A stretch of 63,642 bases of DNA, from contig JAGBNQ010000062.1 of NCBI GenBank assembly GCA_017634275.1, forward strand, positions 1 to 63,642, given 5' to 3'. A program made the translations under genes and the position numbers. Below, in pieces: positions 1 through 13,016 of this stretch (its first letter is position 1; every line of letters begins with the position of its first letter). Source of the DNA: Ruminococcus sp. GTDB taxonomy: Bacteria > Bacillota > Clostridia > Oscillospirales > Ruminococcaceae. The notes under the pieces were generated by a model, which saw only the letters and a program-made list of their open reading frames with translations, did not search any database and had not been told where the DNA came from.

Positions 1-46
1 ATTCGGGTGATAAGTCCTTAATGTACTTTTCAAAATTTTCGTTCAT
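1..46 (-). CDS. Leader-peptide family small protein, 5' end only
   Basis: Only the first 15 codons are inside the window (MNENFEKYIKDLSPE). They match the array leader exactly. An AGGAGG ribosome site lies at 55-60. The gene shows that the array continues beyond the left edge; its core is not visible. Confidence 0.8.
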   Translation of the reverse strand, partial: MNENFEKYIKDLSPE

Positions 47-65
47 AGTGTTTTCCTCCTTAATC

Positions 66-332
66 TTATCTAACAAATCTATCATGGCGTTCATAACCAC
101 AGTCATCACAGTGGTATATGGCACCCGCTATTTGATAATTACTGCTGCCGCATTTAGGACACTTTGGTTTTTTTCCGCAGCCGCCCGAAACAAGCTCTAA
201 AGCCTCCTCGGGGAGTTCAAGTTCATTCTCCGCCAAAAAAGCGTTCAGTTCTTCTTCGGTTTTAATCCCTTTTGCCTTTTCCTGTAATTCGGGGGATAAG
301 TCTTTAATGTACTTTTCAAAATTTTCATTCAT
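66..332 (-). CDS. Leader-peptide family protein with four-Cys zinc-ribbon-like core
   Basis: 88 residues: 51-residue leader ending LVSGG and a 37-residue core. The core has C58-x2-C61 and C75-x2-C78, each followed by Gly (CPKCG, CDDCG), with 13 residues between the pairs. This is the geometry of a small zinc ribbon or rubredoxin-like knuckle pair. The Cys positions equal those of the gene at 1166-1432 although the intervening sequence differs. An extra Cys sits at the first core position (C52). The function is unknown; metal binding is inferred from the motif only. Confidence 0.8.
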   Translation of the reverse strand: MNENFEKYIKDLSPELQEKAKGIKTEEELNAFLAENELELPEEALELVSGGCGKKPKCPKCGSSNYQIAGAIYHCDDCGYERHDRFVR

Positions 333-386
333 AGTTTTTTCCTCCTTGTATACCGGCAGACCGGATCGTTATTAAATGCTGTATAT

Positions 387-632
387 TTATTTTACAATTT
401 TAGACTCAGCAGGATAGGCAGGGTCGAGCCTTTTTCTTTTTTCAGGATGGTACGTTCCTCCGGAATTGGTTCCACAGCCGCCGCCTGCTATATATTCAAG
501 TGCCTCCTCGGGGAGTTCCAAGTCATTGTCTGCTAAAAATTCATTCAGTTCCTCTTCGGTTTTAATCCCTTTTGCCTTTTCCTGTAATTCGGGTGGTAAG
601 TTCTTAATGTACTTTTCAAATTTTTCGTTCAT
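387..632 (-). CDS. Leader-peptide family protein with basic, single-Cys core
   Basis: 81 residues with a leader ending YIAGG. The 30-residue core (GCGTNSGGTYHPEKRKRLDP...) has one Cys and a basic stretch and cannot form the two-knuckle fold of its neighbours. This is the first gene downstream of the repeat-bearing promoter at 700-748. The core may be a truncated remnant of a longer one or a genuinely different product; the sequence does not decide. Confidence 0.75.
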   Translation of the reverse strand: MNEKFEKYIKNLPPELQEKAKGIKTEEELNEFLADNDLELPEEALEYIAGGGCGTNSGGTYHPEKRKRLDPAYPAESKIVK

Positions 633-699
633 GGTGTTTTCCTCCTTATAATTTATTACGCAAGCAGGCAGACGGACGCCGCCTTTAGCTTACAAACAC

Positions 700-748
700 A
701 TTATAGCATATCATCTGCTACAAATATGCAACAAATCCGCAACAAATC
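700..748 (-). promoter_or_regulatory. Array promoter P1 with three 11-bp direct repeats
   Basis: Read on the minus strand: GATTTGTTGCG (738-748), GATTTGTTGCA (727-737) and TATTTGTAGCA (716-726), then 10 bp, then TATAAT (700-705). The repeats cover the place of the -35 box, which has no consensus hexamer. It lies upstream of the gene starting at 632. The same layout occurs at 5915 and 8756. Confidence 0.75.
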
Positions 749-893
749 GCCTGTTTTTTTATCAAACATAATAAACAAACTTTTTGATGATCGTTTGTGT
801 ATAACGACGAACTCTCATACAGTTACTATACTGATTCCAATTCGGACAGCTCCATATATCCTTTTACAGATAATGCATAAATAGTCGCCGCCC

Positions 894-1112
894 TTATTTT
901 TGTAGATAAAGGTGATTATTTCGCTGATCATCAGGGATCTCAGCCCCACTGAAACAGCCGCCGCCTGCTATCATGTCGAGTGCCTCCTCGGGCATTTCGA
1001 GATCATTTTCCGCAAGGAAAGCGTTCAGTTCCTCTGTGGTCTTGCACTCCCTTGCCTTATCCTGCAACTCGGGGGATAAGTCCTTTATGTACTTTTCAAA
1101 GTTTGCGTTCAT
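894..1112 (-). CDS. Leader-peptide family protein with very short core
   Basis: 72 residues. The start at 1112 is chosen because AGGAGG sits at 1121-1126 and the leader begins MNANFEKYIKD; an upstream in-frame ATG at 1166 has no ribosome site. The leader ends MIAGG. The core is only 21 residues (GCFSGAEIPDDQRNNHLYLQ plus K) with one Cys, the shortest in the array. It may be a truncated core. Confidence 0.72.
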   Translation of the reverse strand: MNANFEKYIKDLSPELQDKARECKTTEELNAFLAENDLEMPEEALDMIAGGGCFSGAEIPDDQRNNHLYLQK

Positions 1113-1165
1113 AGGTTTTTCCTCCTCGTGGATTTCCTGACGTTTCTCTGCAATAAATGCGTTCA

Positions 1166-1432
1166 TTAGTATATTACCTTGTCATCTTTTGAATACCCGC
1201 ATTTGGGGCATTTCCAGAAAGAGTTGTATAGGTGGTCCATTACTGTTCCGCATCTATCACATTTGAGAGGAGTTCCACAGCCGCCTGCAACAAGCTCTAA
1301 AGCCTCCTCGGGCAGCTCGAGTTCATTCTCCGCTATAAAAGCGTTAAGTTCTTCCTTAGTCTTGCAAGCCCTTGCCTTTTCCTGCAATTCGGGGGATAAG
1401 TCCTTAATGTATTTTTCAAAATTTTCATTCAT
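1166..1432 (-). CDS. Leader-peptide family protein with four-Cys zinc-ribbon-like core
   Basis: 88 residues, start at 1432 set by the leader MNENFEKYIKD and AGGAGG at 1441-1446. The leader ends LVAGG. The core has CDRCG (C58, C61) and CPKCG (C75, C78) and ends KDDKVIY. Length and Cys positions are identical to the gene at 66-332, so the two are a subfamily with conserved knuckles and diverged loops. Confidence 0.8.
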   Translation of the reverse strand: MNENFEKYIKDLSPELQEKARACKTKEELNAFIAENELELPEEALELVAGGCGTPLKCDRCGTVMDHLYNSFWKCPKCGYSKDDKVIY

Positions 1433-1511
1433 GGTATTTTCCTCCTTGATTGTATTTATTCGAGTTGAAAGACTATTTGTCGCCTCCGGAATGCACCTTA
1501 CACTGTCGTTA

Positions 1512-1835
1512 TCAGATGATATCATAAATGGCGTTCAAATACATCGCATAGCGTTTTATCTGCGGTGGTGCATCGTTTAAAGCCTCCAGTCCGTATTGGA
1601 CTGCCTTTTTCCTTATCCTCTTTTTCATTTCCGTAATATGTCCGTTGGCATCTAACCAGTTGTAAAGCTCTTCCAGCGCACCGCCGCCCGAAACCATTTC
1701 CAGTGCCTCCTCGGGCAGCTCTAAGTCATTCACCGCAAGGAAAGCGTTCAGTTCCTCTGTGGTCTTGCACTGACGTGCCTTTTCCTGCAATTCGGGCGAT
1801 AAGTCCTTTATGTACTTTTCAAATTTTTCATTCAT
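1512..1835 (-). CDS. Leader-peptide family protein with Cys-free core
   Basis: 107 residues; the leader begins MNEKFEKYIKD at 1835 and ends MVSGG. The 56-residue core has no cysteine. It starts GALEELYNWLDANG, continues with a basic run (EMKKRIRKKAVQYG) and ends in an aromatic, hydrophobic tail (KRYAMYLNAIYDII). It looks alpha-helical and partly amphipathic, unlike all neighbours. An independent, bacteriocin-like or chaperone-like product is possible but not shown. The ribosome site is weaker than usual. Confidence 0.72.
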   Translation of the reverse strand: MNEKFEKYIKDLSPELQEKARQCKTTEELNAFLAVNDLELPEEALEMVSGGGALEELYNWLDANGHITEMKKRIRKKAVQYGLEALNDAPPQIKRYAMYLNAIYDII

Positions 1836-1870
1836 AGCTATTATCTCCTGCCGTTTCATCGCACAGTTTT

Positions 1871-2293
1871 TTAACCAAGCGGACAGTTTCCGCCGAAATG
1901 CGGAATATACTCTTTATTTGTAGCCTTGACTGAGTTGTATTCAGCCTCTGACAACTCGGCTTGTGCGCCTTGTCCGAAGGTGAAAGATTCGCAACAAAAA
2001 AATTTTGCATTTCCGCATTCACTGCACGCGCGCATTGTCACCATAGCACATTCAATTCCTTTGATGATGGGGAAGGGGGACGCAAATATATATCTTTCAA
2101 TGACGCTGTCTACGTTGCATTCATGTCCGCCGCAGCCGCCGCCGCCCGAAACAAGCTCCAAAGCCTCCTCGGGGAGTTCAAGTTCATTCTCCGCTATAAA
2201 AGCATCAAGCTCTTCCTTTGTTTTAAGCTCTCTTGCCTTTTCCTGTAATTCAGGTGATAGATCCTTAATGTACTTTTCAAATTTTTCGTTCAT
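1871..2293 (-). CDS. Leader-peptide family protein, long Cys-rich core (EYNS tail type)
   Basis: 140 residues, leader ending LVSGG, 89-residue core. The core opens GGCGGHEC, has a CSECG knuckle and a CC pair, then a C-terminal motif LSEAEYNSVKATNKEY. The same tail motif (SAAEYNSLKA) appears in the gene at 3689-4120, in the remnant at 4524-4647 and behind the stop of the gene at 7233-7598, which defines a long-core subfamily. Confidence 0.78.
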   Translation of the reverse strand: MNEKFEKYIKDLSPELQEKARELKTKEELDAFIAENELELPEEALELVSGGGGCGGHECNVDSVIERYIFASPFPIIKGIECAMVTMRACSECGNAKFFCCESFTFGQGAQAELSEAEYNSVKATNKEYIPHFGGNCPLG

Positions 2294-2323
2294 AGTGTTT
2301 TCCTCCTTAAATACTTTTCATTA

Positions 2324-2686
2324 TTATGCGTGTATCTCGTCCTTAAAAACTATACCGCAGTTAGGGCAACGGTAATAGTCATTATAATTTATTACATAAC
2401 TTGTTACTCCTAAATGGCCCCAACGCTTATTGTTATAAACATTAACTTCAGGAGAATCCTCATGTGTACACTGTGTTACCTTTGCGTTACATTTATTGCA
2501 CTTATCGGGTGCAGGCGGTGTGGATGTACAGCCGCCGCCTGCTACAAGCTCGAGTGCCTCCTCGGGCAGCTCCAAGTTGTTTTCAGCTAAAAAAGCATCA
2601 AGCTCTTCCTTAGTCTTGCACTCCCTTGCCTTTTCCTGTAATTCAGGTGATAAGTCCTTTAAATATTCTTCAAATTTTTCATTCAT
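2324..2686 (-). CDS. Leader-peptide family protein, core type ending CGIVFKDEIHA
   Basis: 120 residues; start at 2686 from the leader motif and the G-rich ribosome site just upstream. The core opens GCTSTPPAPDKC, has CNKC plus a third Cys about seven residues later, a central Trp/Tyr-rich loop, and ends with CPNCGIVFKDEIHA. The gene at 5487-5876 has the same plan (CSKC, third Cys, terminal CKNCGIVYADEIHI), so the knuckle and tail are conserved while the loop is not. Confidence 0.78.
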   Translation of the reverse strand: MNEKFEEYLKDLSPELQEKARECKTKEELDAFLAENNLELPEEALELVAGGGCTSTPPAPDKCNKCNAKVTQCTHEDSPEVNVYNNKRWGHLGVTSYVINYNDYYRCPNCGIVFKDEIHA

Positions 2687-2700
2687 AGTTTTTTCCCCCT

Positions 2701-2964
2701 TTAATATCCCGAACTGAAATAGCGTGTCTCTCCGCATTTTTTGCATTCCTTGTAAGAGGTATATACATCCCAATCATGCTTTCCGCCCTTGGGGCAGTCG
2801 CCTGTGCAGAATCCGCCCGAAACCATTTCAAGCGCGTCCTCGGGCAGCTCTATCTCATTTTCAGCCAAAAAAGCATCAAGCTCTTCCTTAGTCTTGCACT
2901 GACGTGCCTTTTCCTGCAATTCAGGTGATAAATCCTTAATGTACTTTTCAATTTTTTCGTTCAT
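2701..2964 (-). CDS. Leader-peptide family protein, CxxxC/CxxC core
   Basis: 87 residues, leader ending MVSGG. The 36-residue core has CTGDC near its start and CKKC near its end (YKECKKCGETRYFSSGY). The gene at 3355-3619 is a degenerate copy: its DNA downstream of the frameshift still encodes almost the same tail. Cores at 4696-4992 and 7233-7598 share the CxxxC ... CxxC pattern. Confidence 0.8.
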   Translation of the reverse strand: MNEKIEKYIKDLSPELQEKARQCKTKEELDAFLAENEIELPEDALEMVSGGFCTGDCPKGGKHDWDVYTSYKECKKCGETRYFSSGY

Positions 2965-3040
2965 AGTGTTTTCCTCCTGTGTAACATTATTAATGACAAT
3001 ATAGCTTGTGATTTGCTTATTTGTTATTTGAATGCATAAA

Positions 3041-3340
3041 TCATCTCAATTCAACTTCGCCATTGTTATAGCTTAGCGGCTTTACACATTTTGGGCACCA
3101 ATGAGTAGAATCTCCATGAAGAGAAGAAAGTAGTGCTCGTGAACCGCAGTATATGCAGTATGCTTTTTTAGTATCTGCTGTTCCGCATCCTCCCGCAACA
3201 GCTTCCAAAGCGTCCTCGGGCAGCTCCAGGTCATTATCCGCCAAAAATTCGATCAGTTCCTCTGTGGTTTTGCACTCCCTTGCCTTTTGCTGTAATTCAG
3301 GTGATAAATCCTTAATGTACTTTTCAAAATTTTCGTTCAT
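3041..3340 (-). CDS. Leader-peptide family protein with zinc-ribbon-like core
   Basis: 99 residues, leader ending AVAGG, 48-residue core. Two knuckles, CIYCG (C62, C65) and CPKC (C82, C85), are 16 residues apart. The ribosome site AGGAGG directly abuts the old stop codon of the frameshifted gene upstream (3355-3357), so the two genes were once tightly coupled. Confidence 0.8.
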   Translation of the reverse strand: MNENFEKYIKDLSPELQQKARECKTTEELIEFLADNDLELPEDALEAVAGGCGTADTKKAYCIYCGSRALLSSLHGDSTHWCPKCVKPLSYNNGEVELR

Positions 3341-3354
3341 AGTGTTTTCCTCCT

Positions 3355-3619
3355 TTAATATCCTGAACTGAAATAGCGTATCTCACCGCATTTTTTGCAT
3401 TCCTTGTAAGAGGAACATACATCCCATTCGTGCTTACGGCTTTAGGTACAGTCGCTTGAGCGTCATTCCGGCCGAAACCATTTCAATCTCGTCCTCGGGC
3501 AGCTCTATATCGTTCTCCGCTAAAAATTTGCTAAGTTCTTCCTTTGTTTTGCACTCACTTGCCTTTTCCTGCAATTCGGGTGATAAGTCCTTTAAGTATT
3601 TTTCAAATATTTCATTCAT
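3355..3619 (-). pseudogene. Frameshifted leader-peptide family gene (copy of 2701-2964)
   Basis: Translation from 3619 gives a normal leader but ends MVSAGMTLKRLYLKP at 3434: the first Gly of the GG site is Ala and the core is lost. In another frame the DNA down to 3355 still reads HEWDVCSSYKECKKCG followed by EIRYFSSGY and a stop, nearly identical to the intact core at 2701-2964. Aligning the two DNA segments by eye shows a net one-base insertion between about 3434 and 3475. So this is a recent duplicate broken by a frameshift and a lost cleavage site. Confidence 0.8.
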
Positions 3620-3640
3620 AGTTTTTTCCTCATTTTTTAT

Positions 3641-3746
3641 TACTGATCACTGATCGGTCGGAAAATCAGTATATGCCGGTAATTGTAACTACCACGTTTT
3701 CTGCGCCTTAAGTGAGTTATACTCAGCGGCGCTTATCTCTTTATAG
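3641..3746 (-). repeat. Duplicated 3'-end segment, copy A
   Basis: The last codons of the gene at 3689-4120 plus its 3' flank recur at 4524-4626 with few changes. Shared features are the GATCA-rich flank, an inverted GACCG/CGGTC block, and the codons for EISAA(E/D)YNSLKA. This marks a block duplication. Confidence 0.7.
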
Positions 3747-4120
3747 CTTATGATGCTGTTTTGATTGACATATTTGTCTGCATTAGGAAACGTCAGGACA
3801 TAATAATGTAATTCTGAGCATTTGCTGCATTGATTTGTCTTGATGTTTTGTACCTGCATCCCGTTATAATGTATAGCATGGCCGACCGGCCCGTTGCTGC
3901 CGAACGTCGGTACCATATCAATTCTTTCAATTTCTATGAAATTATGCTCGCAGTGTGACGTAGTGCAGCCGCCTGCCACCATTTTAAGAGCCTCCTCGGG
4001 AAGTTCCAAGTCATTGTCTGCTAAAAATACATTCAGATCTTCCTTTGTCTTGCACTGACGTGCCTTTTCCTGCAATTCGGGGGAGAGGTCCTTTAAGTAG
4101 CTTTCAAATTTTTCGTTCAT
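3689..4120 (-). CDS. Leader-peptide family protein, longest core (EYNS tail type)
   Basis: 143 residues, leader ending MVAGG, 92-residue core. The core has CTTSHC, a variable middle rich in Gly, Asn and His, a CSKC knuckle (QCSKCSELHYY) and the tail EISAAEYNSLKAQKTW. It belongs with the gene at 1871-2293. Its C-terminal codons are duplicated upstream at 4524-4626. Confidence 0.78.
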   Translation of the reverse strand: MNEKFESYLKDLSPELQEKARQCKTKEDLNVFLADNDLELPEEALKMVAGGCTTSHCEHNFIEIERIDMVPTFGSNGPVGHAIHYNGMQVQNIKTNQCSKCSELHYYVLTFPNADKYVNQNSIISYKEISAAEYNSLKAQKTW

Positions 4121-4137
4121 GGTTTTTTCCTCCTTGA

Positions 4138-4506
4138 TCAGTATTTGAAAACGCGATCATCATACTTGCCGCTGTACCAAAGTCCGTTATTGTAGCTGCT
4201 GCATTTGGGGTTGGAGCAATACATTCTCCATATAAGACTATAGCCCTTTTCATTGGCACACATATCAAAGTAGCGCAGCTTTTGCTTACATTCGGGGCAG
4301 TTATAGAGCATAATGTCACCCTGATTTTTGCTGGGGTCGGACTGACTGCAGCCGCCGCCTGCCACCATTTCAAGAGCCTCCTCGGGGAGTTCTATCTCAT
4401 TTTCAGCTATAAAAGCATTAAGCTCTTCCTTTGTCTTGCACTCTCTTGCCTTTTCCTGCAATTCGGGTGATAAGTCCTTTAAGTATTTTTCAAATTTTTC
4501 ATTCAT
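4138..4506 (-). CDS. Leader-peptide family protein, CPxC / YCxxxxC core
   Basis: 122 residues, leader ending MVAGG, 71-residue core. Knuckles: CPECKQKLRYFD (C70, C73) and YCSNPKCSSYNNGLW (C97, C102). The second knuckle has four spacer residues. Genes at 7622-7966, 8004-8387, 6061-6480 and 6497-6877 share this plan, including an aromatic LxY(Y/W/F) after the first knuckle and S-(F/Y) after the last Cys. Confidence 0.8.
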   Translation of the reverse strand: MNEKFEKYLKDLSPELQEKARECKTKEELNAFIAENEIELPEEALEMVAGGGCSQSDPSKNQGDIMLYNCPECKQKLRYFDMCANEKGYSLIWRMYCSNPKCSSYNNGLWYSGKYDDRVFKY

Positions 4507-4523
4507 AGTTTTTTCCTCCTTAT

Positions 4524-4647
4524 TTATTATTGATCACCGGTCGGAAAACCGGTATATGCCGGTAATTGTAACTGCCACGTTTTATGCGCTTTAAGTGAGT
4601 TATAATCAGCGGCGCTTATCTCTGTATTGTAATAATTCTTCGTTCAT
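4524..4647 (-). pseudogene. Internal-deletion remnant of a long-core array gene
   Basis: From an ATG at 4645-4647 the sequence reads MNEELLQYRDKRR and stops. In the next frame the same DNA reads EISAADYNSLKAHKTW, the C-terminus of the gene at 3689-4120 with two changes. The start codons of a leader thus seem joined directly to the 3' end of a core, with everything between deleted. The matching 3' flank (4524-4560) confirms common origin. No good ribosome site precedes it. Confidence 0.6.
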
Positions 4648-4695
4648 GATCCTGCTGCTTTCACCGCACGGGGGATTGCCTTTATATTTACCTGC

Positions 4696-4992
4696 TTACT
4701 TTGTTTCGTACTTTGAATTGCCGCAGTTTCTGCAAACATAACGGTATTGACTCTTGCCGCCGCTTGCCTCAAAGATGTCACTTAGGTACCAGTTGTGCTT
4801 TCTGTCATCAGAACCATAGCATTTTTCATCGCAGCCCCCTCCGCCTGCTACCGCGTCAAGCACATCATCGGGCAGCTCTATATCGTTTTCCGCAAGAAAA
4901 TCGTTAAGCTCCTCCATAGTCTCGCATTCTCTTGCCTTTTCCTGCAATTCGGGTGATAAGTCCTTTAAGTGTTCTTCAAAAATCTTGTTCAT
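4696..4992 (-). CDS. Leader-peptide family protein, CxxxC/CxxC core
   Basis: 98 residues. Start at 4992 (MNKIFEEHLKDL) is preferred over an in-frame ATG at 5037 because AGGAG precedes it and the leader starts there. The leader is more divergent (ECETMEELNDF, DDVLDAVAGG). The 47-residue core has CDEKC early and CRNCG late (YRYVCRNCGNSKYETK). Confidence 0.77.
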   Translation of the reverse strand: MNKIFEEHLKDLSPELQEKARECETMEELNDFLAENDIELPDDVLDAVAGGGGCDEKCYGSDDRKHNWYLSDIFEASGGKSQYRYVCRNCGNSKYETK

Positions 4993-5168
4993 AATTCTTA
5001 CTCCTTTTCTGTTGATTATTTGATTTATAGTTCGCACATTTTACTGTGCGGTTCCTTCTCGGTCTGTGATCTTTTCAGCCGTTTTCATAAAGCCTTGAAT
5101 TATCAGCGTATGAAGAATGAGCCGACAAAGTCGCTGTCAGAGCCGCTGCAGCCGTCTGCGCTCACGCC

Positions 5169-5468
5169 TTAGTTTGAGCTTATATTTGCCCACATTATCT
5201 CGTCAAGTGTGAGGTTGCGTCCGCAGTGCGAGCATCTGAACAACGAATATCCCGAGCTTACGCAGATAGTTTTGTGCTTTTTGCAAACGGCGAGCCTTTT
5301 GCTGCCTGAACTTACACCGCCCGAAACGTGCTGAAGTATCTCATCGGGCAGCTCAATGTCGTTTTTTTGGATAAACTCGGTAAGCTCCTTGGCGGTCTCA
5401 CATTTCTTTGCCTCTTCACGAAGTTCGGACGGAAGAGTTTCTATGTAATATTTTAAGCTTTCATTCAT
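5169..5468 (-). CDS. Leader-peptide family protein, divergent leader
   Basis: 99 residues. The leader (MNESLKYYIETLPSELREEA ... ILQHVSGG) is one of the most divergent but still 51 long with GG. The 48-residue core begins VSSGSKRLAV, has C-x6-C (CKKHKTIC) and a CSHCG knuckle, and ends with LTLDEIMWANISSN. Ribosome site AGGAGG lies just upstream. Confidence 0.77.
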   Translation of the reverse strand: MNESLKYYIETLPSELREEAKKCETAKELTEFIQKNDIELPDEILQHVSGGVSSGSKRLAVCKKHKTICVSSGYSLFRCSHCGRNLTLDEIMWANISSN

Positions 5469-5486
5469 AGTGTTTTCCTCCTTTAT

Positions 5487-5876
5487 CTATATATGTATCT
5501 CGTCTGCGTAAACTATCCCGCAGTTTTTGCACCTTCGGTATTCGCTTAAGACTATACCGCCGCTTGAACCTTCAAGCTGACCGAACAGCCCCTTGTTGTT
5601 TTTCTCCCAGCGGCTTTTTATGTAGGCCTTGATGTCGTTTATGTCGCTCTCCTTGCAGGGTGAAACGCTTGCAAAGCATTTGCTGCATTTCTCTCCGTTG
5701 CCCTCATTCCCCGAGCAAATGAACCCTCCCGAAACAAGCTCTAACGCCTCATCGGGCAGCTCTAAGTCATTGTCCGCGATAAATTCACAAAGCTCCTCCT
5801 TGGTCTTAAGCCCCCTTGCCTTTTGCTGCAATTCGGGGGATAAGCGGTCTATGCATTTTTCAAGATTTTCGTTCAT
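5487..5876 (-). CDS. Leader-peptide family protein, core ending CGIVYADEIHI
   Basis: 129 residues, leader MNENLEKCIDRL... ending LVSGG, 78-residue core. Cysteines at C54, C64, C67, C74 and a terminal CKNC (C116, C119). It shares plan and tail with the gene at 2324-2686. It is the first gene after promoter P2, with a leader RNA of about 30 nt. The leader itself has a Cys at position 8, rare in the family. Confidence 0.78.
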   Translation of the reverse strand: MNENLEKCIDRLSPELQQKARGLKTKEELCEFIADNDLELPDEALELVSGGFICSGNEGNGEKCSKCFASVSPCKESDINDIKAYIKSRWEKNNKGLFGQLEGSSGGIVLSEYRRCKNCGIVYADEIHI

Positions 5877-5914
5877 CGTTACCTCTCCTTTATGTTGTTT
5901 GTTTTTACACCTGT

Positions 5915-5952
5915 ATTATAACACACCGTCCGTAACAAATCCGCTACAAATC
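5915..5952 (-). promoter_or_regulatory. Array promoter P2 with two 11-bp direct repeats
   Basis: On the minus strand GATTTGTAGCG (5942-5952) and GATTTGTTACG (5931-5941) are followed by 10 bp and TATAAT (5915-5920). Same geometry as P1 and P3. It lies between the genes at 6061-6480 and 5487-5876 and should drive the genes from 5876 down to 894. Confidence 0.78.
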
Positions 5953-6060
5953 AGCGTTTTTGCCATTGCCGTTTTTAACGAACATTCGGACGGTGTTTTG
6001 TATAATTTGTATATTTTTTAATATTTTTTAAGCAGCGCCTTAACAGTTTGGGTCTATCTG

Positions 6061-6480
6061 TTATCCGTAAAAATCGCTGTCTTCATATCTTTCGATCTTA
6101 TCATTGCTGTATGGTGCCGCAGGAGCGCCTATGTAGTAAAACATCCATTTGTTAAAGGACGGGCATTCACTGCGCTTGCAATACAGCCTTACTGCGCTGA
6201 ATGGCTCGGTAACGCGGCAATATGATTTAAAGCGTATATCTCGGTAGTAAAGCTGTCCTTTGCATTCCGGGCATACCGCGCCGGCGACAAGGTCGCCTCT
6301 TTTGTATATCTCTGATGTTTGTGTGCAGCCCCCTGCAACAAGCTCCAGAGCCTCCTCGGGGAGTTCAAGCTCATTATCCCTTATAAACTCGTTAAGCTCG
6401 TCTTTGGTCTTGCACTCTCTTGCCTTTTCCTGCAGCTCGGGGGATAAGCTCTCTATGTACTTTTCAAAGCTCTCGTTCAT
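6061..6480 (-). CDS. Leader-peptide family protein, CPxC / YCxxxxC core
   Basis: 139 residues. Start at 6480 by leader motif (MNESFEKYIESL); an in-frame ATG at 6540 lacks the motif. The leader ends LVAGG. The 88-residue core has CPECKGQLYYRD, an isolated Cys, then LYCKRSECPSFNKW and a long acidic tail (KIERYEDSDFYG). It is a longer version of the core at 4138-4506. Confidence 0.77.
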   Translation of the reverse strand: MNESFEKYIESLSPELQEKARECKTKDELNEFIRDNELELPEEALELVAGGCTQTSEIYKRGDLVAGAVCPECKGQLYYRDIRFKSYCRVTEPFSAVRLYCKRSECPSFNKWMFYYIGAPAAPYSNDKIERYEDSDFYG

Positions 6481-6496
6481 GGTGATACCCTCCTTA

Positions 6497-6877
6497 TTAA
6501 TGGTGCAAATACATTCTTCTAAGGCTGCTGCCCTGATCAAAATATACTATGCTGGTTACGGGCGATTCCCTGAAATAGCTCCTGCAGGCTCTGTTTTCGC
6601 AGTATAAGACGTGCTGGCCCACTCTTTCTCCGAAATAATAAAGCTGTTCATGGCATAAAGGGCAGGTCTTGCCGGGAACGATATCGCCTTCGTTTAGCGG
6701 AACTGCATACGGGTCGTTTCCGCCGCCGCCCGATACCGCCTCAAGCGCCTCCTCGGGCAGCTCTATATCATTCTCTGCCAAAAACTCCATTAATTCATCA
6801 TTGGTCTTGCACGCCATAGCTTTTTCGCGCAGCTCAGGCTCTAAGTCTTCTATGTATTTATTTATCATCTCGTTCAT
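6497..6877 (-). CDS. Leader-peptide family protein, CPxC / YCxxxxC core
   Basis: 126 residues; leader MNEMINKYIEDLEPELREKA ... ending AVSGG, more divergent than most. The core starts GGNDPYAVPLNEGDIVPG and has CPLCHEQLYYFG and YCENRACRSYF. The C-terminal tail is basic (SLRRMYLHH). The ribosome site is poor compared with the neighbours. Confidence 0.74.
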   Translation of the reverse strand: MNEMINKYIEDLEPELREKAMACKTNDELMEFLAENDIELPEEALEAVSGGGGNDPYAVPLNEGDIVPGKTCPLCHEQLYYFGERVGQHVLYCENRACRSYFRESPVTSIVYFDQGSSLRRMYLHH

Positions 6878-7232
6878 AGCGATCTCCGTCCTCAAAATAA
6901 ACTTTCATTATCGGCAGCATTATCCGTCAGCCCTTCTTTATTACCTCGGTGTTGCCTTAAAATTCCGCATTCAGGGCATTTTCTGTGATCTGCGGTAATT
7001 ATGATAAAGCTTGTTACATTATGCTGCGCTATGTAAAATCCCTTTACTGTATTTTCGCAGTGAGTGAATTTGTAAATATGATAGCGGTGTAATTATCATC
7101 TTCTGTTTGAACGCAGCTGTGCCGTTCAGATCATTTTCTTAGTTACATTATTTTTTTGTATCTCTCATATTCAGCCGAAAGCTGAAATGAGCTGACTCTG
7201 ATTTCTTGTTCGTAAGCTCTGCTCACTGTGTT
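6878..7232 (-). other. 355-bp gap holding decayed core remnants
   Basis: There is no intact gene here. On the minus strand the DNA around 6960-6990 reads DHRKCPECGILRQ, a single zinc knuckle like those in the cores, without a leader. Near 7142-7232 the reading frame of the gene at 7233 continues after its stop codon (see that gene). The rest shows nothing recognisable. The gap looks like a degraded array member. Confidence 0.5.
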
Positions 7233-7598
7233 TTACTTTTTTCTGAATCTTGCGAGTTCCTGCACAACGCTGTCGCCTAATTCATACTCCTGGCCGTTTT
7301 TTTCTACGTTGACGGTACGAATACATCCGCACTTTTTGCACTTCCAGGTTCTTACCCTGTATATCGCATAGCTCCATTCCGTGTGAGATTCATATTCGTC
7401 CAGTATCTCCCTGTCATCATGTGTGCATTTCCCGCCACACTGCGAGCCGCCCGAAACCGCTGAGAGCAGCTCGTCATCAAGCTCCAGATCATTGTCGGCA
7501 ATAAAAGCGTTTAGCTCGTCTGTGGTTTTTATATCCTTTGCCTTTTCCTGCAATTCGGGTGATAAATCCTTAATGTACTTTTCAAATTTTTCGTTCAT
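7233..7598 (-). CDS. Leader-peptide family protein, possibly shortened by a stop codon
   Basis: 121 residues, leader ending AVSGG (ELDDELLSAVSGG). The 70-residue core has CGGKC and CKKCGC, then a charged tail ending ELARFRKK. Past its TAA (7233-7235) the same frame stays open for 30 more codons to a second TAA near 7143. This part includes SFQLSAEYERYKKIM, which resembles the EYNS tail of the long-core members. Either the stop is a recent nonsense change or a short form was selected. Confidence 0.77.
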   Translation of the reverse strand: MNEKFEKYIKDLSPELQEKAKDIKTTDELNAFIADNDLELDDELLSAVSGGSQCGGKCTHDDREILDEYESHTEWSYAIYRVRTWKCKKCGCIRTVNVEKNGQEYELGDSVVQELARFRKK

Positions 7599-7621
7599 AG
7601 TATTTTCCTCCTTTTATGTTA

Positions 7622-7966
7622 TCAGCATTTATTTATTTTGCCGCTTGCAGCCTTGAACCATAAGCCGTTGTTGAATGACGAACATTTCGTATTGTCGCAA
7701 TACATTCTATCGCCCTGATGAAATGTAGTATCCCAGTAGCGGAGCCAGTTTGAGCATTCGGGGCATCTGTACGGCATGGGAGCGCCCTTTTCGTATGCAT
7801 CACCGCAGCTGCACCCTCCCGATACCATTTCAAGCGCTTCCTCGGGCAGCTCTATCTCGTTGTCTGCCAAAAAAGCATTTAATTCCTCTTTTGTCTTGCA
7901 TTCCCTTGCCTTTTCCTGCAATTCGGGTGATAAATCCTTAATGTACTTTTCAAATTTTTCGTTCAT
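7622..7966 (-). CDS. Leader-peptide family protein, CPxC / YCxxxxC core
   Basis: 114 residues, leader ending MVSGG. The 63-residue core starts CSCGDAYEKG; knuckles are CPECSNWLRYWD (C68, C71) and YCDNTKCSSFNNGLW (C90, C95), with a final Cys at the C-terminus. It is the closest relative of the core at 4138-4506 (same SS-(F/Y)-NNGLW). Confidence 0.8.
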   Translation of the reverse strand: MNEKFEKYIKDLSPELQEKARECKTKEELNAFLADNEIELPEEALEMVSGGCSCGDAYEKGAPMPYRCPECSNWLRYWDTTFHQGDRMYCDNTKCSSFNNGLWFKAASGKINKC

Positions 7967-8003
7967 AGTATTTTCCTCCTTGTTATAATATGAAATATGT
8001 GTA

Positions 8004-8387
8004 TCAGAATCTTTCTACCTTATTAACTGCCGGGCTGAATGTCGTATGAGACGGCACATCAGAACGGAAACAGACACTCGCGTATGATTTGCAATAGATA
8101 TTGCCGCAATACATTCTTATGTATTGTTTTCCTTCATGTACCATATCCCAGTAGTAAAGCGTGCTGCCGCAGTCAAGGCACTTTGCGCCAACTACTTCAT
8201 CATGCTTGTCATATACATGAGATGAAAACGAGCAGCCGCCGGAAACCATTTCAAGTGCGTCCTCGGGCAGCTCTATCTCGTTCTCCGCTATAAAAGCATC
8301 AAGCTCCTCTTTTGTTTTGCACTCCCTTGCCTTTTCCTGCAATTCGGGGTCTAAATTCTCTATGTACTTTTCAAATTTTTCGTTCAT
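8004..8387 (-). CDS. Leader-peptide family protein, CPxC-like / YCxxxxC core
   Basis: 127 residues, leader ending MVSGG, 76-residue core. Knuckles CLDCGSTLYYWD and YCGNIYCKSY plus an extra Cys. The start codon overlaps the stop of the upstream gene as ATGA (8384-8387), so translation is probably coupled. Confidence 0.8.
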   Translation of the reverse strand: MNEKFEKYIENLDPELQEKARECKTKEELDAFIAENEIELPEDALEMVSGGCSFSSHVYDKHDEVVGAKCLDCGSTLYYWDMVHEGKQYIRMYCGNIYCKSYASVCFRSDVPSHTTFSPAVNKVERF

Positions 8388-8719
8388 AGCCGCGCCCTTC
8401 TGAAGTTATTTTTATTTGTATCCTTCGCCGGTTTCACGTCCTCTATCGGATCAAAGTCCAGGCAGCAGTTGCAGCAATGCAGCTCGCCGCTTGCATACTG
8501 CATGGAAAGGTAGCTGCCGCAGTTGGGGCATGGGGGCTTTTCGTGTATCTGCCCGTCGCACTGCGCACCGCCCGAGACCGCCTCAAGCTTATCCTCGGGT
8601 ATCTCAATATCGTTGTCGGCAAATAACTCGCTCAGCTCCTCAAAGTCTTTGCATTTTTCCGCCTTTTCCTTAAGCTCGTGCGGAAGGTCTTTTATTAATT
8701 TATCTAAGCTTTCATACAT
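8384..8719 (-). CDS. First gene of the array, divergent leader, zinc-ribbon-like core
   Basis: 111 residues. The leader (MYESLDKLIKDLPHELKEKA ... KLEAVSGG) is the most divergent but is still 51 long. The 60-residue core begins AQCDGQIHEK and has CPNCG and a C-rich second knuckle (LHCCNCCLDFD). A basic tail ends NNFRRARL. It is the promoter-proximal gene, about 30 nt after the start expected from P3, and overlaps the next gene by 4 bp. Confidence 0.78.
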   Translation of the reverse strand: MYESLDKLIKDLPHELKEKAEKCKDFEELSELFADNDIEIPEDKLEAVSGGAQCDGQIHEKPPCPNCGSYLSMQYASGELHCCNCCLDFDPIEDVKPAKDTNKNNFRRARL

Positions 8720-8755
8720 GATATATTCCTCCTTTTATGTTTTTTTTACAGCTAC

Positions 8756-8793
8756 ATTATAACACATTCCCTGTAACAAATCCGCAACAAATC
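8756..8793 (-). promoter_or_regulatory. Array promoter P3 with two 11-bp direct repeats
   Basis: On the minus strand GATTTGTTGCG (8783-8793) and GATTTGTTACA (8772-8782), 10 bp, then TATAAT (8756-8761). It lies directly upstream of the first array gene. Repeat spacing equals one helical turn and the repeats replace the -35 box, as expected for activator-dependent transcription. Confidence 0.78.
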
Positions 8794-8891
8794 AGCGCTT
8801 TTTTGTCCGTTGTTTTTCACAAATAAATTTGTGCAATCTTTATAAAATAACGTTTTCGTTAGCACTTATCTGTAAGCTGACGCAAAAAAAT

Positions 8892-9093
8892 CCCCTTAAC
8901 GCTAAAGGCAACACCGCACAAAGACCGCCTGAGAGCTTTGCGGCACATCTACTTGCAGATTTTCCGTCATATCACCCAAATTCACCTTGAAATACGTTAG
9001 TATTCCTGCGGTAAATTTGGGCAATCTGACGAAAAATCTGACTGCGTATCTGTACCACAATCTTTGTGCGGTGTTGCCTTAAGCGAAAAGGGG
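8892..9093. mobile_element. MITE-like imperfect inverted repeat (about 200 bp)
   Basis: The ends are inverted copies: CCCCTT-AA-CGCT-A-AAGGCAACACC on the left and its complement on the right, both continuing into GCACAAAG. Inner parts also pair (CAGATTTTCCGTCA with CAGATTTTTCGTCA, and CACCCAAATTCACC with its counterpart). There is no open reading frame. A fragment of the same end (AAGGCAACACCGCACAA) occurs at 14170. It lies between the kinase-like gene and the array promoter and could also act as a terminator. No target-site duplication was identified. Confidence 0.6.
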
Positions 9094-9116
9094 AGAAAAA
9101 TATATGTGTATCACTA

Positions 9117-9875
9117 TTACGAATAATCTACAACATCTATCCAGCGCATAAGCAGGTCATGCTCCTCGGGCTTGTTCTTTATAAGCTGCGCTGCAGCAAC
9201 TATCGGCAGCCACTGCTGAACGTACATTTTTGATGTGCCGCTCTTAAGGCAGTACTTGTCGAGGTACTTGTCAGCTATCTCGGGGTGGTGCAGGCACAGG
9301 AGCATATAAGTCCTCGCAACATCGGCGGAGGCGTTGCCCTGCCTTGCATTTGACCAGTTGATGACATATGTGCCGTCATCGTTGAAGATGATGTTTTTCG
9401 GCTCAAAGCTGCCGTGGCAGAGCTTTATGTGCTTAGGCATAGAATCAAGGCGCGTGAGCAGCTCGTATTTCTTTATCTCATCTATCTGCCCTATGCTCTT
9501 TATCTGCCTTGCCATTTTATCCTTAAGCTTTGATAAAAGCGGCATGAACTGCGCGTGTATCTCCATCTGAATGTCGATCATTCTGTCGATGTACATTTCT
9601 GTTTTGTCGGGGTTCTCTTCCATAAGCTGCTTTAAGGTCTTGCCCTTTATCCAGTCATGCGAGATAGCCCACTTGCCGTCAACAACACCTACCTCGTGAA
9701 GTGTCGGCACCTTTATATTGGTATTAACCATAGTAGTCTCACACCTTGCGTGGGTGAGTGCGGCGTAAAGGCATTTTTCCTTGTACTCGGGCTTTTTGTA
9801 AACTCTTATCGACCTGTCATCGTCCTCATATACATCATAGATATCGCCTTCGGCTATAAATTTTTTAAGCTCCAT
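9117..9875 (-). CDS. Aminoglycoside phosphotransferase-fold protein
   Basis: 252 residues, start at 9875 after AGGAG. It contains the APH-fold catalytic loop as LCHGSFEPKNIIFNDDG (HGDxxxxN-type with Ser in place of Asp) followed by YVINWSNARQGNASADVART, where the usual IDWE metal-binding Asp is Asn. Both canonical acidic residues of the APH family are therefore replaced, so catalytic activity is uncertain. An N-terminal nucleotide-lobe-like region precedes it. It has its own promoter and reads toward the leader-peptide array, separated by the inverted repeat. The substrate is unknown. Confidence 0.75.
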   Translation of the reverse strand: MELKKFIAEGDIYDVYEDDDRSIRVYKKPEYKEKCLYAALTHARCETTMVNTNIKVPTLHEVGVVDGKWAISHDWIKGKTLKQLMEENPDKTEMYIDRMIDIQMEIHAQFMPLLSKLKDKMARQIKSIGQIDEIKKYELLTRLDSMPKHIKLCHGSFEPKNIIFNDDGTYVINWSNARQGNASADVARTYMLLCLHHPEIADKYLDKYCLKSGTSKMYVQQWLPIVAAAQLIKNKPEEHDLLMRWIDVVDYS

Positions 9876-9953
9876 ATTAATTCTCCTATCTGTTTTGATT
9901 TTTAGACAGCTGTCAAAATTCACAAAATAACTTCCGCCGCCTTTGATATCAAT

Positions 9954-9982
9954 ATTATACTACGGGATATACGAATTGTCAA
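9954..9982 (-). promoter_or_regulatory. Promoter of the phosphotransferase-fold gene
   Basis: Minus strand TTGACA (9977-9982), 17-bp spacer, TATAAT (9954-9959). It is a perfect consensus match 80 bp upstream of the start. Confidence 0.8.
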
Positions 9983-10206
9983 GCATTTTTCGTTATTTTC
10001 ACCAACGTTTAATATTTGTTAAGAATTTAAGCTCCATTAATTAATATTTGGCGGCCTGATTTATGTATTTGTTATATATCACGCTGATTTTATGTGTGGA
10101 TTTTGCACAAAATAAAAAGTTTACAAAATATTATTCAGGGTTCATTATTTGTGTATTATCAATAACTGCGGCTGAAAAAACAATAAAAATATGTCGGAAA
10201 ATTCGA

Positions 10207-10235
10207 TTGACAAAAAAATAACGATTTGATATAAT
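10207..10235 (+). promoter_or_regulatory. Promoter of adhE
   Basis: TTGACA (10207-10212), 17-bp spacer, TATAAT (10230-10235). The rest of the 420-bp divergent intergenic region (9876-10295) is AT-rich and shows no further gene. Confidence 0.8.
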
Positions 10236-10295
10236 GTAGTTATAGTGATAGTATATATGGGCATACCTCAAAAAAATAAAACGGAGGGTACGTTT

Positions 10296-12902
10296 ATGGT
10301 TAAAATAGTTGATACAGTAGAGGCTCTCGAAGAAAAGATAAAAGAAGTCAAGGCCGCGCAGGCTGTCTTTGCAGAGTATTCTCAGGAGCAGGTCGATAAG
10401 ATATTCCGTGCGGCGGCGCTTGCTGCAAACAAGGCAAGGGTCAGCCTTGCAAAGCTTGCCGTTGAGGAAACGGGAATGGGCGTTGTTGAGGATAAGGTGA
10501 TAAAAAACAACTACGCTGCCGAGTATATCTATAACGCTTACAAAAATACAAAGACCTGCGGTATAGTTGAGGAGGATAAGGCTTACGGCACAAAGAAGAT
10601 ACTTGAACCTATAGGCCTTATAGCTGCGGTAATTCCTACCACCAACCCTACCTCGACCGCGATATTCAAGGCGATGATAGCATTAAAGACGAGAAACGGC
10701 ATAATCTTCTCGCCCCACCCGAGGGCTAAGAAAAGCACTATCGAGGCCGCAAGGATAGTTTTAGAGGCGGCTGTTGAGGCAGGCGCTCCCGAAAACATCA
10801 TCGGCTGGATAGATGTTCCGTCGCTTGACCTTACAAACACAATTATGAAAGAGGCTGACATTATCCTCGCAACGGGCGGCCCGGGAATGGTAAAGGCTGC
10901 GTATTCAAGCGGCAAGCCTGCCCTCGGTGTAGGTGCAGGAAATACCCCTGCGGTAATTGACAAGAGTGCTGATATCTTAGTGGCGGTAAACTCCATTATC
11001 CACTCAAAGACCTTTGATAACGGCATGATATGCGCGTCCGAGCAGTCTGTCATAGTTGACAAGAGCATATACAGCGAGGTCAAGAAGGAATTCAAGGCAA
11101 GGGGCTGCTATTTCCTTAATAAAGAGGAAACAGAAAAGGTAAGAAAGACAATAATCATAAACGGCGCGCTCAATGCTAAGATAGTCGGCCAGTCGGCATT
11201 CAGGATAGCAGAGCTTGCTGACGTTAAAGTTCCCGAAAGCACTAAGATACTCATAGGCGAGGTAACAAGCGTTGATATCTCCGAGGAGTTTGCTCACGAA
11301 AAGCTTTCCCCCGTGCTTGCTATGTATAAGGCGAATAGCTTTGAGGACGCCTGCGAAAAGGCTGATAAGCTTATAAAGGACGGCGGCTACGGCCATACAG
11401 CATCTCTCTACGTTGACGAAACAACGGAAGATGAGAAGATAAATTATTTCGCACATAAAATGAAGACCTGCCGTATTCTGGTAAACACCCCCTCCTCGCA
11501 CGGCGGCATAGGTGATCTTTACAACTTCAAGCTCGCACCCTCGCTCACTCTGGGCTGCGGCTCGTGGGGCGGAAATTCCGTTTCGGAAAATGTTGGGGTC
11601 AAGCACCTGCTCAATATCAAGACAGTTGCCGAGAGGAGAGAGAATATGCTTTGGTTCAGATCGCCTGATAAGGTCTATTTCAAAAAGGGCTGCCTGCCTG
11701 TTGCTCTTGATGAGCTTAAAAATGTTATGGGCAAAAAGCGTGCCTTTATCGTGACGGATAACTTCCTTTACAAAAACGGCTTTACTAAGCCCGTTACCGA
11801 TAAGCTCGATGAGCTGGGAATTATCCACGAAACATTCTTTGACGTTGAGCCCGACCCGTCATTAAAATGTGCCGAAGAGGGTGCAAAGGCTATAAGAGCA
11901 TTTGAGCCTGATACGATAATCGCTATCGGCGGCGGCTCGGCTATGGACGCCGCAAAGATAATGTGGGTCCTCTACGAGCACCCCGAGGCTGACTTCCTTG
12001 ATATGGCTATGCGCTTTATCGACATAAGAAAGAGGGTCTACACATTCCCGAAAATGGGCGAGAAGGCTTACTTTGTCTGCGTTCCTACCTCTTCGGGCAC
12101 AGGCTCTGAGGTAACGCCCTTTGCAGTCATCACAGATGAAAAGACAGGTCATAAATACCCCCTTGCAGACTATGCTCTTATGCCTAACATGGCTATAGTT
12201 GATACTGATATGATGATGAGCGCGCCAAAGGGGCTCACCGCTGCATCAGGCCTTGACTGCATGGTGCATGATCTGGAGGCTTATGCATCTGTTATGGCTA
12301 CCGACTTTACAGACGGCATCGCTCTTCGCAGCTTAAAGCTTACCTTTGATAACCTCCCCGAGTGCGTTGAAAACGGTCAGACGGCTGTAAGGGCAAGGGA
12401 GAATATGGCGCACGCCGCAACAATGGCAGGTATGGCATTTGCAAACGCATTCTTAGGTATCGGCCACTCGCTTGCACATAAACTCGGCGCTTACCACCAC
12501 CTGCCGCACGGAATATGCTGCGCGCTCGTAATTACCAATGTCATGAAATTCAACGCCTCCGAAGCGCCGCGCAAAATGGGAACATTCTCACAGTATGCTT
12601 ATCCTCATACGCTCGAGCGCTACTGCGAGGTCGCTAATTACTTAGGTATCTTCGGCAAGGATAATAAGGACACCTTCAAAAAGCTCTTAGCTAAGATAGA
12701 GGAGCTAAAAGAGCGCTGCGGCTGCAAGAAAACTATTGCAGACTACGGTATCAGCGAGGAGGATTTCTTGGCTACCCTTGATAAGATGAGCGAGGACGCA
12801 TTCGACGACCAATGCACGGGCGCAAACCCACGCTACCCCCTCATCAGCGAGCTTAAGGATATCTACATGGCTTGCTACTACGGCACGGAATATAACGGAT
12901 AA
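10296..12902 (+). CDS. adhE: Bifunctional acetaldehyde-CoA / alcohol dehydrogenase
   Basis: 868 residues, the usual AdhE length. Start at 10296 (MVKIVDTVEALEEKIKEVKA) fits GGAGG just upstream. The N-terminal half is an aldehyde dehydrogenase domain with the catalytic region FDNGMICASEQSV; the C-terminal half is an iron-dependent alcohol dehydrogenase with GGGSAMDAAK and metal ligands in GIGHSLAHKLGAYHHLPHG. It reduces acetyl-CoA to ethanol with NADH during fermentation. It has its own promoter and terminator and is monocistronic. Confidence 0.97.
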   Translation: MVKIVDTVEALEEKIKEVKAAQAVFAEYSQEQVDKIFRAAALAANKARVSLAKLAVEETGMGVVEDKVIKNNYAAEYIYNAYKNTKTCGIVEEDKAYGTKKILEPIGLIAAVIPTTNPTSTAIFKAMIALKTRNGIIFSPHPRAKKSTIEAARIVLEAAVEAGAPENIIGWIDVPSLDLTNTIMKEADIILATGGPGMVKAAYSSGKPALGVGAGNTPAVIDKSADILVAVNSIIHSKTFDNGMICASEQSVIVDKSIYSEVKKEFKARGCYFLNKEETEKVRKTIIINGALNAKIVGQSAFRIAELADVKVPESTKILIGEVTSVDISEEFAHEKLSPVLAMYKANSFEDACEKADKLIKDGGYGHTASLYVDETTEDEKINYFAHKMKTCRILVNTPSSHGGIGDLYNFKLAPSLTLGCGSWGGNSVSENVGVKHLLNIKTVAERRENMLWFRSPDKVYFKKGCLPVALDELKNVMGKKRAFIVTDNFLYKNGFTKPVTDKLDELGIIHETFFDVEPDPSLKCAEEGAKAIRAFEPDTIIAIGGGSAMDAAKIMWVLYEHPEADFLDMAMRFIDIRKRVYTFPKMGEKAYFVCVPTSSGTGSEVTPFAVITDEKTGHKYPLADYALMPNMAIVDTDMMMSAPKGLTAASGLDCMVHDLEAYASVMATDFTDGIALRSLKLTFDNLPECVENGQTAVRARENMAHAATMAGMAFANAFLGIGHSLAHKLGAYHHLPHGICCALVITNVMKFNASEAPRKMGTFSQYAYPHTLERYCEVANYLGIFGKDNKDTFKKLLAKIEELKERCGCKKTIADYGISEEDFLATLDKMSEDAFDDQCTGANPRYPLISELKDIYMACYYGTEYNG

Positions 12903-12911
12903 ATTTACAAA

Positions 12912-12940
12912 ACACTCGTCTTTACGACGGGTGTTTTTTA
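12912..12940 (+). terminator. Terminator of adhE
   Basis: Hairpin ACACTCGTC-TTTAC-GACGGGTGT followed by a run of T. AT-only repeats (TAATTAATAA) follow to about 12966. Confidence 0.85.
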
Positions 12941-13016
12941 ATTAATAATTAATAATTAATAATTACGGTGTCCGCCGAAAGCGGAATGGTTTGAATTGTT
13001 TCATATGGCATTTTTG

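Follow-up and report, generated by a model that had tools for sequence, protein, structure and literature searches.

Why should one bacterium keep a row of small genes that all begin alike and end differently? The question is raised by a contig of 63,642 nucleotides from Ruminococcus sp. (JAGBNQ010000062.1, assembly GCA_017634275.1), the whole of which is called the window here. A minus-strand array at positions 1–8719 comprises 21 complete small genes and one more that is cut by the contig end (2–46). Why some bacteria hold dozens of precursors of ribosomally synthesized and post-translationally modified peptides (RiPPs) that combine a single leader with many cores is, to our knowledge, still an open question, and the prochlorosins are its best-known case. 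We consider it fairly probable that the genes encode a secreted library of mostly zinc-ribbon-like microproteins, probably modified by a radical S-adenosylmethionine (SAM) enzyme, which stand behind a shortened Nif11-like leader and leave the cell through an NHLM exporter. The window array would then be a single block in a regulon for producing and secreting a large library of small proteins; the leader of 51 residues, ending in GG, would guide every precursor to the shared exporter, whose C39 peptidase domain should cleave after GG during export.

The source genome is an assembly of 1.76 Mb in 82 contigs, 58.65% complete, and the window is its contig C57, in which genes were read over positions 1–14000. 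Genomes are labelled G (G000 being the source), contigs C, and loci from related genomes L. The data are mostly metagenome assemblies, and G000 and several partner genomes are fragmented.

The array and its leader

A reading of the window from sequence alone had described a tandem array of at least 22 genes with a leader of exactly 51 residues ending in GG, and both the number and the length stand: all 21 complete genes have this leader length when the start at 6877 is taken for gene 6497–6877. The GG end was found in 20 of the 21, the remaining gene (3434–3619), which is possibly decayed, having AG. Leaders in the window share 41–92% pairwise identity (mean 70%), the cores behind them span 10–92 residues, and AGGAGG lies just upstream of 14 of the 21 starts, with near forms upstream of most others. 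A wider set of 117 precursors from 13 genomes or loci was kept out of 140 leader matches, each with a leader complete to its end, a core of at least five residues and an expectation value (E) below 1e-8. It holds 20 window genes (894–1112 was left out, perhaps because a remnant of a leader ahead of it was matched first), and since its members are related sequences, motif counts over them are not independent.

A profile built from the 21 leaders matches 57 places in G000: 22 in the window, 32 on contig C12 (25666–37560), and one each on C53, C39 and C6. C12 terminates 128 bases past its last leader, so that the arrays of C57 and C12 may be one; a comparison of the contig ends gave no overlap and thus no support for the join. 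Leader matches were obtained in 8 of 120 genomes searched, namely six of the seven of the genus, G000 included, and two weak cases outside it, and in 10 of 12 named genomes searched (one to seven apiece). The nearest named exporter genes belong to Ruminococcus or uncultured Clostridia records, many from rumen samples, that of R. flavefaciens YRD2003 (87% identity) being among the nearest. Carriage by phages was considered and rejected, none of 230 pattern matches among viral contigs being confirmed as a leader relative. At L110:10746–11294, two precursors are naturally fused in frame as leader, core, leader, core.

Comparison with the Nif11/NHLP leader models, which the sequence-only reading had proposed, established homology without membership. 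At E up to 1, TIGR03798 is matched by 4 of the 21 window precursors (best 0.042), Pfam Nif11 by 7 (best 0.036) and the ‘CTB family bacteriocin’ model by 9 (best 0.007). Against membership, window precursors score 13.5 and 14.0 bits with TIGR03798, under its cut-off of 32.3. The connection is made by longer leaders in loci L081, L085, L092 and L096, which mostly precede Cys-rich cores. Three of eight tested proteins pass TIGR03798 (two from L092, 34.5 and 34.9 bits, and one from L084, 49.1 bits); the remaining five, four with long leaders and one with a short leader, fall below its cut-off. Alignment by hhalign of the 51-residue leader with the long leaders (set A6, which includes two proteins passing TIGR03798) gave a probability of 96.8 and E 2.3e-10, with one 18-residue gap before GG. 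Taken with the sub-cut-off scores, this alignment identifies the leader, as far as sequence can, as a shortened relative of the Nif11-like leader and not a member by the curated cut-off. The logic of RiPP precursors that had been seen in the array, a constant export-type leader before variable cores, holds good.

The proteins could conceivably be intracellular zinc-ribbon regulators in which the GG motif is incidental, and some matches, at weak E-values, to zinc ribbons of intracellular proteins of transcription and the ribosome would suit that view. It is nevertheless highly improbable, given the homology of the leader to those of Nif11-like precursors, its association with an NHLM exporter in many loci, and the GG end of 114 of the 117 leaders.

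The long Nif11-type leaders of L092, L096, L081 and L085 precede many cores with a conserved SYEKGLWLCN-like end, and L092, L096 and L081 adjoin a radical SAM homologue of 47–50% identity; these long-leader loci are a sister system.

Exporter, radical SAM enzyme and promoter box

A search for exporter and maturase genes, also proposed earlier, was productive on both counts. The single C39 peptidase match found in G000 lies on contig C53, in an operon encoding a radical SAM/SPASM protein, lipoprotein-like, DUF7005, STAS and short HlyD-like proteins, and two ATP-binding cassette (ABC) transporters. The exporter reaches 917.2 bits with TIGR03796 (peptidase/permease/ATPase; cut-off 853.3), and the second permease/ATPase 729.3 bits with TIGR03797 (cut-off 709.4). 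Six of the seven genus genomes, and 10 of all 41 genomes examined, exceed the TIGR03796 cut-off. The predicted export anatomy is well supported by sequence. The LanC-like domain PF05147, which a lanthipeptide reading would call for, had no match in G000, a genome 58.65% complete, and that reading was set aside.

The radical SAM protein scores above the cut-offs of PF04055 and PF13186; Pfam gave no PqqD match in it. Fourteen homologues keep what we take to be the CxxxCxxC motif and the C-terminal SPASM cysteines. Its association with the leader is close. Of 80 loci retrieved by searching with the exporter, 10 contain a radical SAM homologue of at least 45% identity. Leaders accompany it in 9 of these and occur in 6 of the 70 loci that lack such a homologue (Fisher p 2e-7); in L027, the one of the 10 without leaders, the radical SAM gene begins at base 17 of the contig. 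Precursors lead straight into a radical SAM gene, at a distance of at most about 0.4 kb, in 12 related loci (L029, L031, L032, L037, L042, L081, L092, L096, L107, L110, L112 and L114), and in G002 (L107) the exporter operon has precursors on either side. The partner radical SAM/SPASM enzyme would probably modify at least some precursors before export.

A promoter box provides the link within G000. It consists of two TTTGTTGC-like repeats 11 bases apart plus an extended TATAAT, and was found in the gaps 633–893 and 5877–6060 of the array and in the DNA above 8719. A search allowing up to 2 mismatches, with the reversed pattern as control, found 15 boxes in G000 and 31 over six of the seven genus genomes, the control giving 0. 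Twenty of the 31 stand directly before leader genes: 10 in G000 (three on C57, four on C12, one each on C53, C6 and C39), five in G004, three in G002, and one each in G001 and G006. Other boxes in G000 precede the radical SAM gene at the head of the exporter operon; a second radical SAM gene, on C41, a contig with no leader match; an operon that encodes an ABC ATPase closest to the ‘lantibiotic protection’ model TIGR03740 (242.4 bits, below its cut-off of 309.75); and a gene with what is presumably a HAD-phosphatase-like motif. One more lies about 0.26 kb upstream of a STAS/RsbW-like pair. Ordinary sigma-70 promoters were considered as an alternative and rejected: a consensus scan of 1–9200 yielded 15 matches, where shuffled sequence gives 16.3, and listed none of them at the three boxes, a result compatible with an activator-type box. 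Because the box is common to leader genes, exporter operon and second radical SAM gene, we read these in G000 as one regulon, in which a single promoter type would serve all of them and which would connect the array of the window with exporter and radical SAM genes that lie on other contigs. The box also offers a means to list the regulon in G000, including a candidate self-protection transporter. Together with the adjacency in 12 loci, the common box makes a modified peptide likelier than the sequence-only reading held; it had favoured metal-binding microproteins over thioether peptides, and the metal-knuckle cores described below retain part of its case.

Several findings weigh against this account. 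A stricter box pattern gave 5 sites across the genus, all in G000. G005 (99% complete), which has the exporter and 7 leader matches, has one 2-mismatch box, away from any leader; G006 has one box for 20 leader matches, and G003 none. G003 (76% complete) has an exporter and no leader match, and G001 (81% complete) has one leader and no exporter above cut-off. In G000 the exporter and radical SAM partner were not found on the array contig, and the HlyD-like protein, of 140 amino acids, scores 37.3 bits with TIGR03794 against a cut-off of 156.2, covering profile positions 1–78 of 421. An N-terminal profile of the radical SAM enzyme had no significant match to solved structures, and no RiPP recognition element (RRE) domain was found in this profile search. 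R. flavefaciens YRD2003 has four leaders, but the 22 kb surrounding its exporter contain no radical SAM gene of this kind. Finally, the array has five gaps longer than 150 bases, and no immunity-like gene was seen in any of them.

Several neighbours of the exporter and the box deserve mention. The DUF7005 protein beside the exporter (L023:2978–3826) recurs in several exporter loci; a stretch of it, HECTH, is of the HExxH type, which makes it a candidate metallopeptidase. Loci L023 (13281–14516) and L143 concern HipA_C: a protein with a sub-threshold Pfam match to it adjoins a leader gene on C53, and one that resembles this protein by eye sits downstream of a promoter box in G002. The box operon at L127:2117–6652 encodes a lantibiotic-protection-like ABC ATPase, membrane proteins and an ion-channel-domain protein. 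At L155, a G002 box site with 2 mismatches is followed by a gene for what looks like a VanX-type D-Ala-D-Ala dipeptidase. A unit of about 0.6 kb, made up of a solitary leader gene and a box, recurs at L025:4720–5328, L111:4196–4804 and L117:8494–9175, with 90–94% identity in three genomes whose flanking DNA is unrelated; its leader is almost unchanged, and most of the differences in its core alter amino acids (Fisher p 0.05–0.18).

Cysteine knuckles and divergence of cores from leaders

The released cores would be mostly mini-proteins, some 20–90 residues long, in which a Cys lies among the first residues and Cys knuckles resemble those of zinc ribbons. Most cores had been said to carry two CxxC knuckles; in the strict sense this is true of 6 of the 21 window cores, at least one CxxC being present in 17 of 21, and it holds in a relaxed sense, with C-x(2–4)-C/H pairs allowed, for 17 of 20. 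Over the 117 precursors, at least one CxxC occurs in 97 (shuffled-core mean 31) and at least two in 47 (shuffled mean 4.5), an enrichment that is not due to chance. The cores fall into 67 groups, 18 of them with at least two members, and several groups span genomes; one such group, of 56 residues, is Cys-free in two of its three copies.

Two rival accounts of these cores have to be weighed. It is possible, if rather doubtful, that they are secreted as unmodified zinc-ribbon microproteins which the exporter alone processes, the radical SAM enzyme serving few precursors or another substrate. CxxC is followed most often by Gly (76 times, K being next with 18), as is typical of zinc ribbons, and the relaxed two-knuckle pattern occurs in 80 of 117 cores against a shuffled mean of 19.4; the array contig without a radical SAM partner, and the leaders in 6 of 70 exporter loci without a close homologue of it, would also be accommodated. 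Against it stand the radical SAM genes directly 3′ of precursors in 12 loci and the box that they share in G000, and no zinc-ribbon model reaches its cut-off among the 10 of 21 window precursors with Pfam scores (the best, PF08274, 24.0 against 30.8). The other account, which we think unlikely, makes the cores sactipeptide- or ranthipeptide-like antibacterials whose Cys residues form thioethers, as in ruminococcin C, and bind no metal. The closest solved sequence to the enzyme is SkfB (E 2.6e-11), and Cys is found at +1 to +3 in 90 of 117 cores (shuffled mean 25); the StsB sactipeptide maturase model also matches (E 1.8e-21), at 76.6 bits against a cut-off of 625 and with other radical SAM families scoring higher. 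The co-regulated ABC ATPase resembling ‘lantibiotic protection’, below cut-off, would suit antibacterials, but CPxCG knuckles resemble metal sites. Seven of the 117 cores have no Cys at all, a point that counts against the preferred account as well as this one, and for this reason no Cys can be a universal target of the enzyme.

Cores had been called hypervariable, and their lengths and sequences are indeed varied; several, however, are orthologous, and some are nearly identical in DNA across species. Same-family pairs between genomes were compared, those with a leader of under 45 or over 56 residues being excluded, which left 71 (the core identity table omits L025, L026, L111 and L116). Core DNA is at least 90% identical in 14 of the 71, and the leader is lower in all 14 (0.68–0.88). 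Core identity exceeds leader identity in 28 pairs; in the other 43 the core is no more conserved than the leader, which speaks against a general pattern. Background identity, measured against G000 only, is 81–87% for adhE and 79–83% for the exporter gene in three genomes. In three core alignments the switch falls at or near the GG codons, and high identity runs past the stop codon to approximately the next ribosome site and leader start.

Synonymous divergence makes the contrast quantitative. Nine core pairs were chosen by hand, eight from the 71-pair set; together they have 18 synonymous differences over 367 sites, a proportion (pS) of 0.049 that describes recently shared cores only. In the leaders of eight of these pairs (the ninth was omitted since its partner’s leader is broken) pS is 0.55 (p 1.5e-46), an approximately elevenfold excess. 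Gene 1871–2293 and its G005 partner have 0 synonymous differences in 87 core codons, and their leader synonymous divergence (dS) is 1.87. The leader is nearer to the best match in its own genome than to the partner’s leader in 15 of 16 comparisons, although this sets the best of many against one partner and so favours the own genome. Other pairs are unremarkable, with a median ratio of nonsynonymous to synonymous divergence (dN/dS) in cores of 0.48 over 50 pairs, of which seven exceed 1; positive selection on the recently shared cores was rejected, since their pooled pN/pS of 1.17 does not differ from 1 (Fisher p 0.61).

From this unequal synonymous divergence, 5% in cores and 55% in leaders, we infer an exchange of core cassettes behind leaders that remain resident in their genomes. 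Mini-protein ends appear to pass between related species, each of which keeps its own tag, and it is the core with its 3′ flank that would be swapped among Ruminococcus species behind a leader of the resident type. Cores might be imported through recombination in the leaders, or whole genes might be imported and their leaders then converted; either route gives the pattern. An artefact of assembly, by which chimeric metagenome contigs fuse the cores of one species to the leaders of another, is improbable. The fragmented state of G000 and of several partners could produce such fusions, and exact runs across the junction extend to 42 nt in one of eight chosen pairs and to 28 nt in the G005 pair when an alignment gap is allowed. 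Ungapped, however, the run in the G005 pair is 6 nt and seven of the eight pairs do not exceed 18 nt, six of them apart from the G005 pair, and the shortness of the junction runs in most pairs makes chimeric assembly unlikely. The final words used in assembly are usually longer than 18 nt. Moreover, the G005 genome consists of two contigs, and leaders match other leaders in their own genome.

If exchange of cores behind resident leaders is accepted, secretion may work as a plug-in system, a proposal to which we give about an even chance. The resident leader would act as docking and export tag, and circulating cassettes (core, stop codon and 3′ flank to the next ribosome site), with zinc-ribbon-like payloads, would be joined precisely at the leader–core boundary, so that a single exporter, together with one or two radical SAM enzymes and (at least in G000) a single promoter code, would serve any imported core. 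Should leader, exporter and enzyme indeed take many unrelated cores, the system would be useful as a natural secretion platform. Interaction with other gut bacteria, by antagonism or signalling, is the likely use; exchangeable secreted mini-proteins and a co-regulated protection-like transporter point to antagonism, which is possibly the role. Because some cores can be traced as units across species, the question of why dozens of precursors are kept becomes testable.

The coordinates of the array and its boxes are collected below. Above the array, between its promoter and gene 9117–9869, lies a 204-base element (8891–9094) with terminal inverted repeats of 34 bases, 91% complementary, which looks like a small miniature inverted-repeat transposable element (MITE); a related end sequence occurs downstream of a promoter box on G002 contig C246. 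Window 10245–12902 and G004 C18:89808–95932 look syntenic, with the array beside adhE, and the G004 leader array starts near adhE too.

Table 1. Precursor genes and promoter boxes of the array, with two box sites in other genomes.
Feature	Position	Strand	Remarks
Cut precursor	2–46	-	First 15 leader residues; leader profile E 3.2e-5
Precursor	66–332	-	37-aa core, CPKCG...CDDCG; weak zinc-ribbon matches under cut-off
Precursor	387–632	-	30-aa core, single Cys, GC at +1/+2
Promoter box	700–735	-	Precedes gene 387–632
Precursor	894–1112	-	21-aa core, end HLYLQK; similar cores in L107, L110
Precursor	1166–1432	-	CDRCG...CPKCG core; 95–96% DNA identity in G002, G004, G006
Precursor	1512–1835	-	56-aa core without Cys; 98% DNA identity in G002
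Precursor	1871–2293	-	89-aa core, 97% DNA identity in G005; leaders 68% identical
Precursor	2324–2686	-	69-aa core, family common with 5487–5876
Precursor	2701–2964	-	Core of FCTGDCPKGG family
Precursor	3041–3340	-	Core with two CxxC
Precursor	3434–3619	-	Leader end AG, not GG; 10-aa core
Precursor	3689–4120	-	92-aa core; family present in G002, G004, G005, G006
Precursor	4138–4506	-	Core of CPxC...RMYC family
Precursor	4696–4992	-	47-aa core, single CxxC
Precursor	5169–5468	-	48-aa core, single CxxC
Precursor	5487–5876	-	78-aa core, two CxxC
Promoter box	5915–5950	-	Precedes gene 5487–5876
Precursor	6061–6480	-	RMYC family core, variant RLYC
Precursor	6497–6877	-	Core grouped with L029 and L042, alignable to RMYC family
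Precursor	7233–7598	-	70-aa core
Precursor	7622–7966	-	RMYC family core
Precursor	8004–8387	-	RMYC family core
First precursor of array	8384–8719	-	Core with three CxxC
Promoter box	8756–8791	-	Precedes first array gene
Further box site	G005 C2:809435
Further box site	G004 C7:70800

Comparison with known systems

The following comparison draws on parts of the published reports. The nearest relatives are the Nif11-derived peptides (N11P) of NHLM systems, large paralogous Gly-Gly-leader families with Cys-rich cores encoded near TIGR03796/TIGR03797 exporters (Haft, 2010; PMC2887384), with which the present system has all these features in common. It differs in a leader that is about 18 residues shorter than that of N11P (TIGR03798) and below its cut-off, in zinc-ribbon-like mini-protein cores, in the promoter box and the core–leader mosaic, and in having a radical SAM partner instead of LanM or a cyclodehydratase. 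A zinc-ribbon-like mini-protein payload was not found described for NHLM systems in the literature searched, and a literature search that left most subscription journals outside it found no title or abstract start matching the combination.

Ruminococcin C of Ruminococcus gnavus, with five precursors, a leader removed by trypsin and four thioethers (PMC6779426), resembles the system in having several paralogous Cys-containing precursors and radical SAM enzymes in a gut Firmicute. Thioethers are established there, whereas the system described here is known from sequence alone; it has a Nif11-like leader, which the consulted part of PMC6779426 does not mention. In Lachnospiraceae C6A11, the tolerant C39 domain LahT cuts the Nif11-type leaders of LahA1-9 after the double Gly (PMC6363468). 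Double-Gly leaders of this type and several cores per cluster are common to both, but the nine Lah precursors compare with 57 leader matches here, and a radical SAM partner and a promoter regulon, both present here, are not mentioned in the part of PMC6363468 consulted.

The tandem arrangement had been thought to set the array apart from the prochlorosins, a distinction that falls away, as prochlorosins form tandem runs of up to 16 precursors according to the consulted part of PMC10783134. The two systems are alike in their conserved Nif11-type leader, their diverse cores, the many precursors per genome and the tandem runs. Prochlorosins, as that report describes them, depend on LanM lanthionine chemistry, whereas a search of the incomplete genome studied here gave no LanC-like domain. 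Unlike prochlorosin cores, many cores here have CxxC knuckles, and the cores are recognizable as cassettes common between species.

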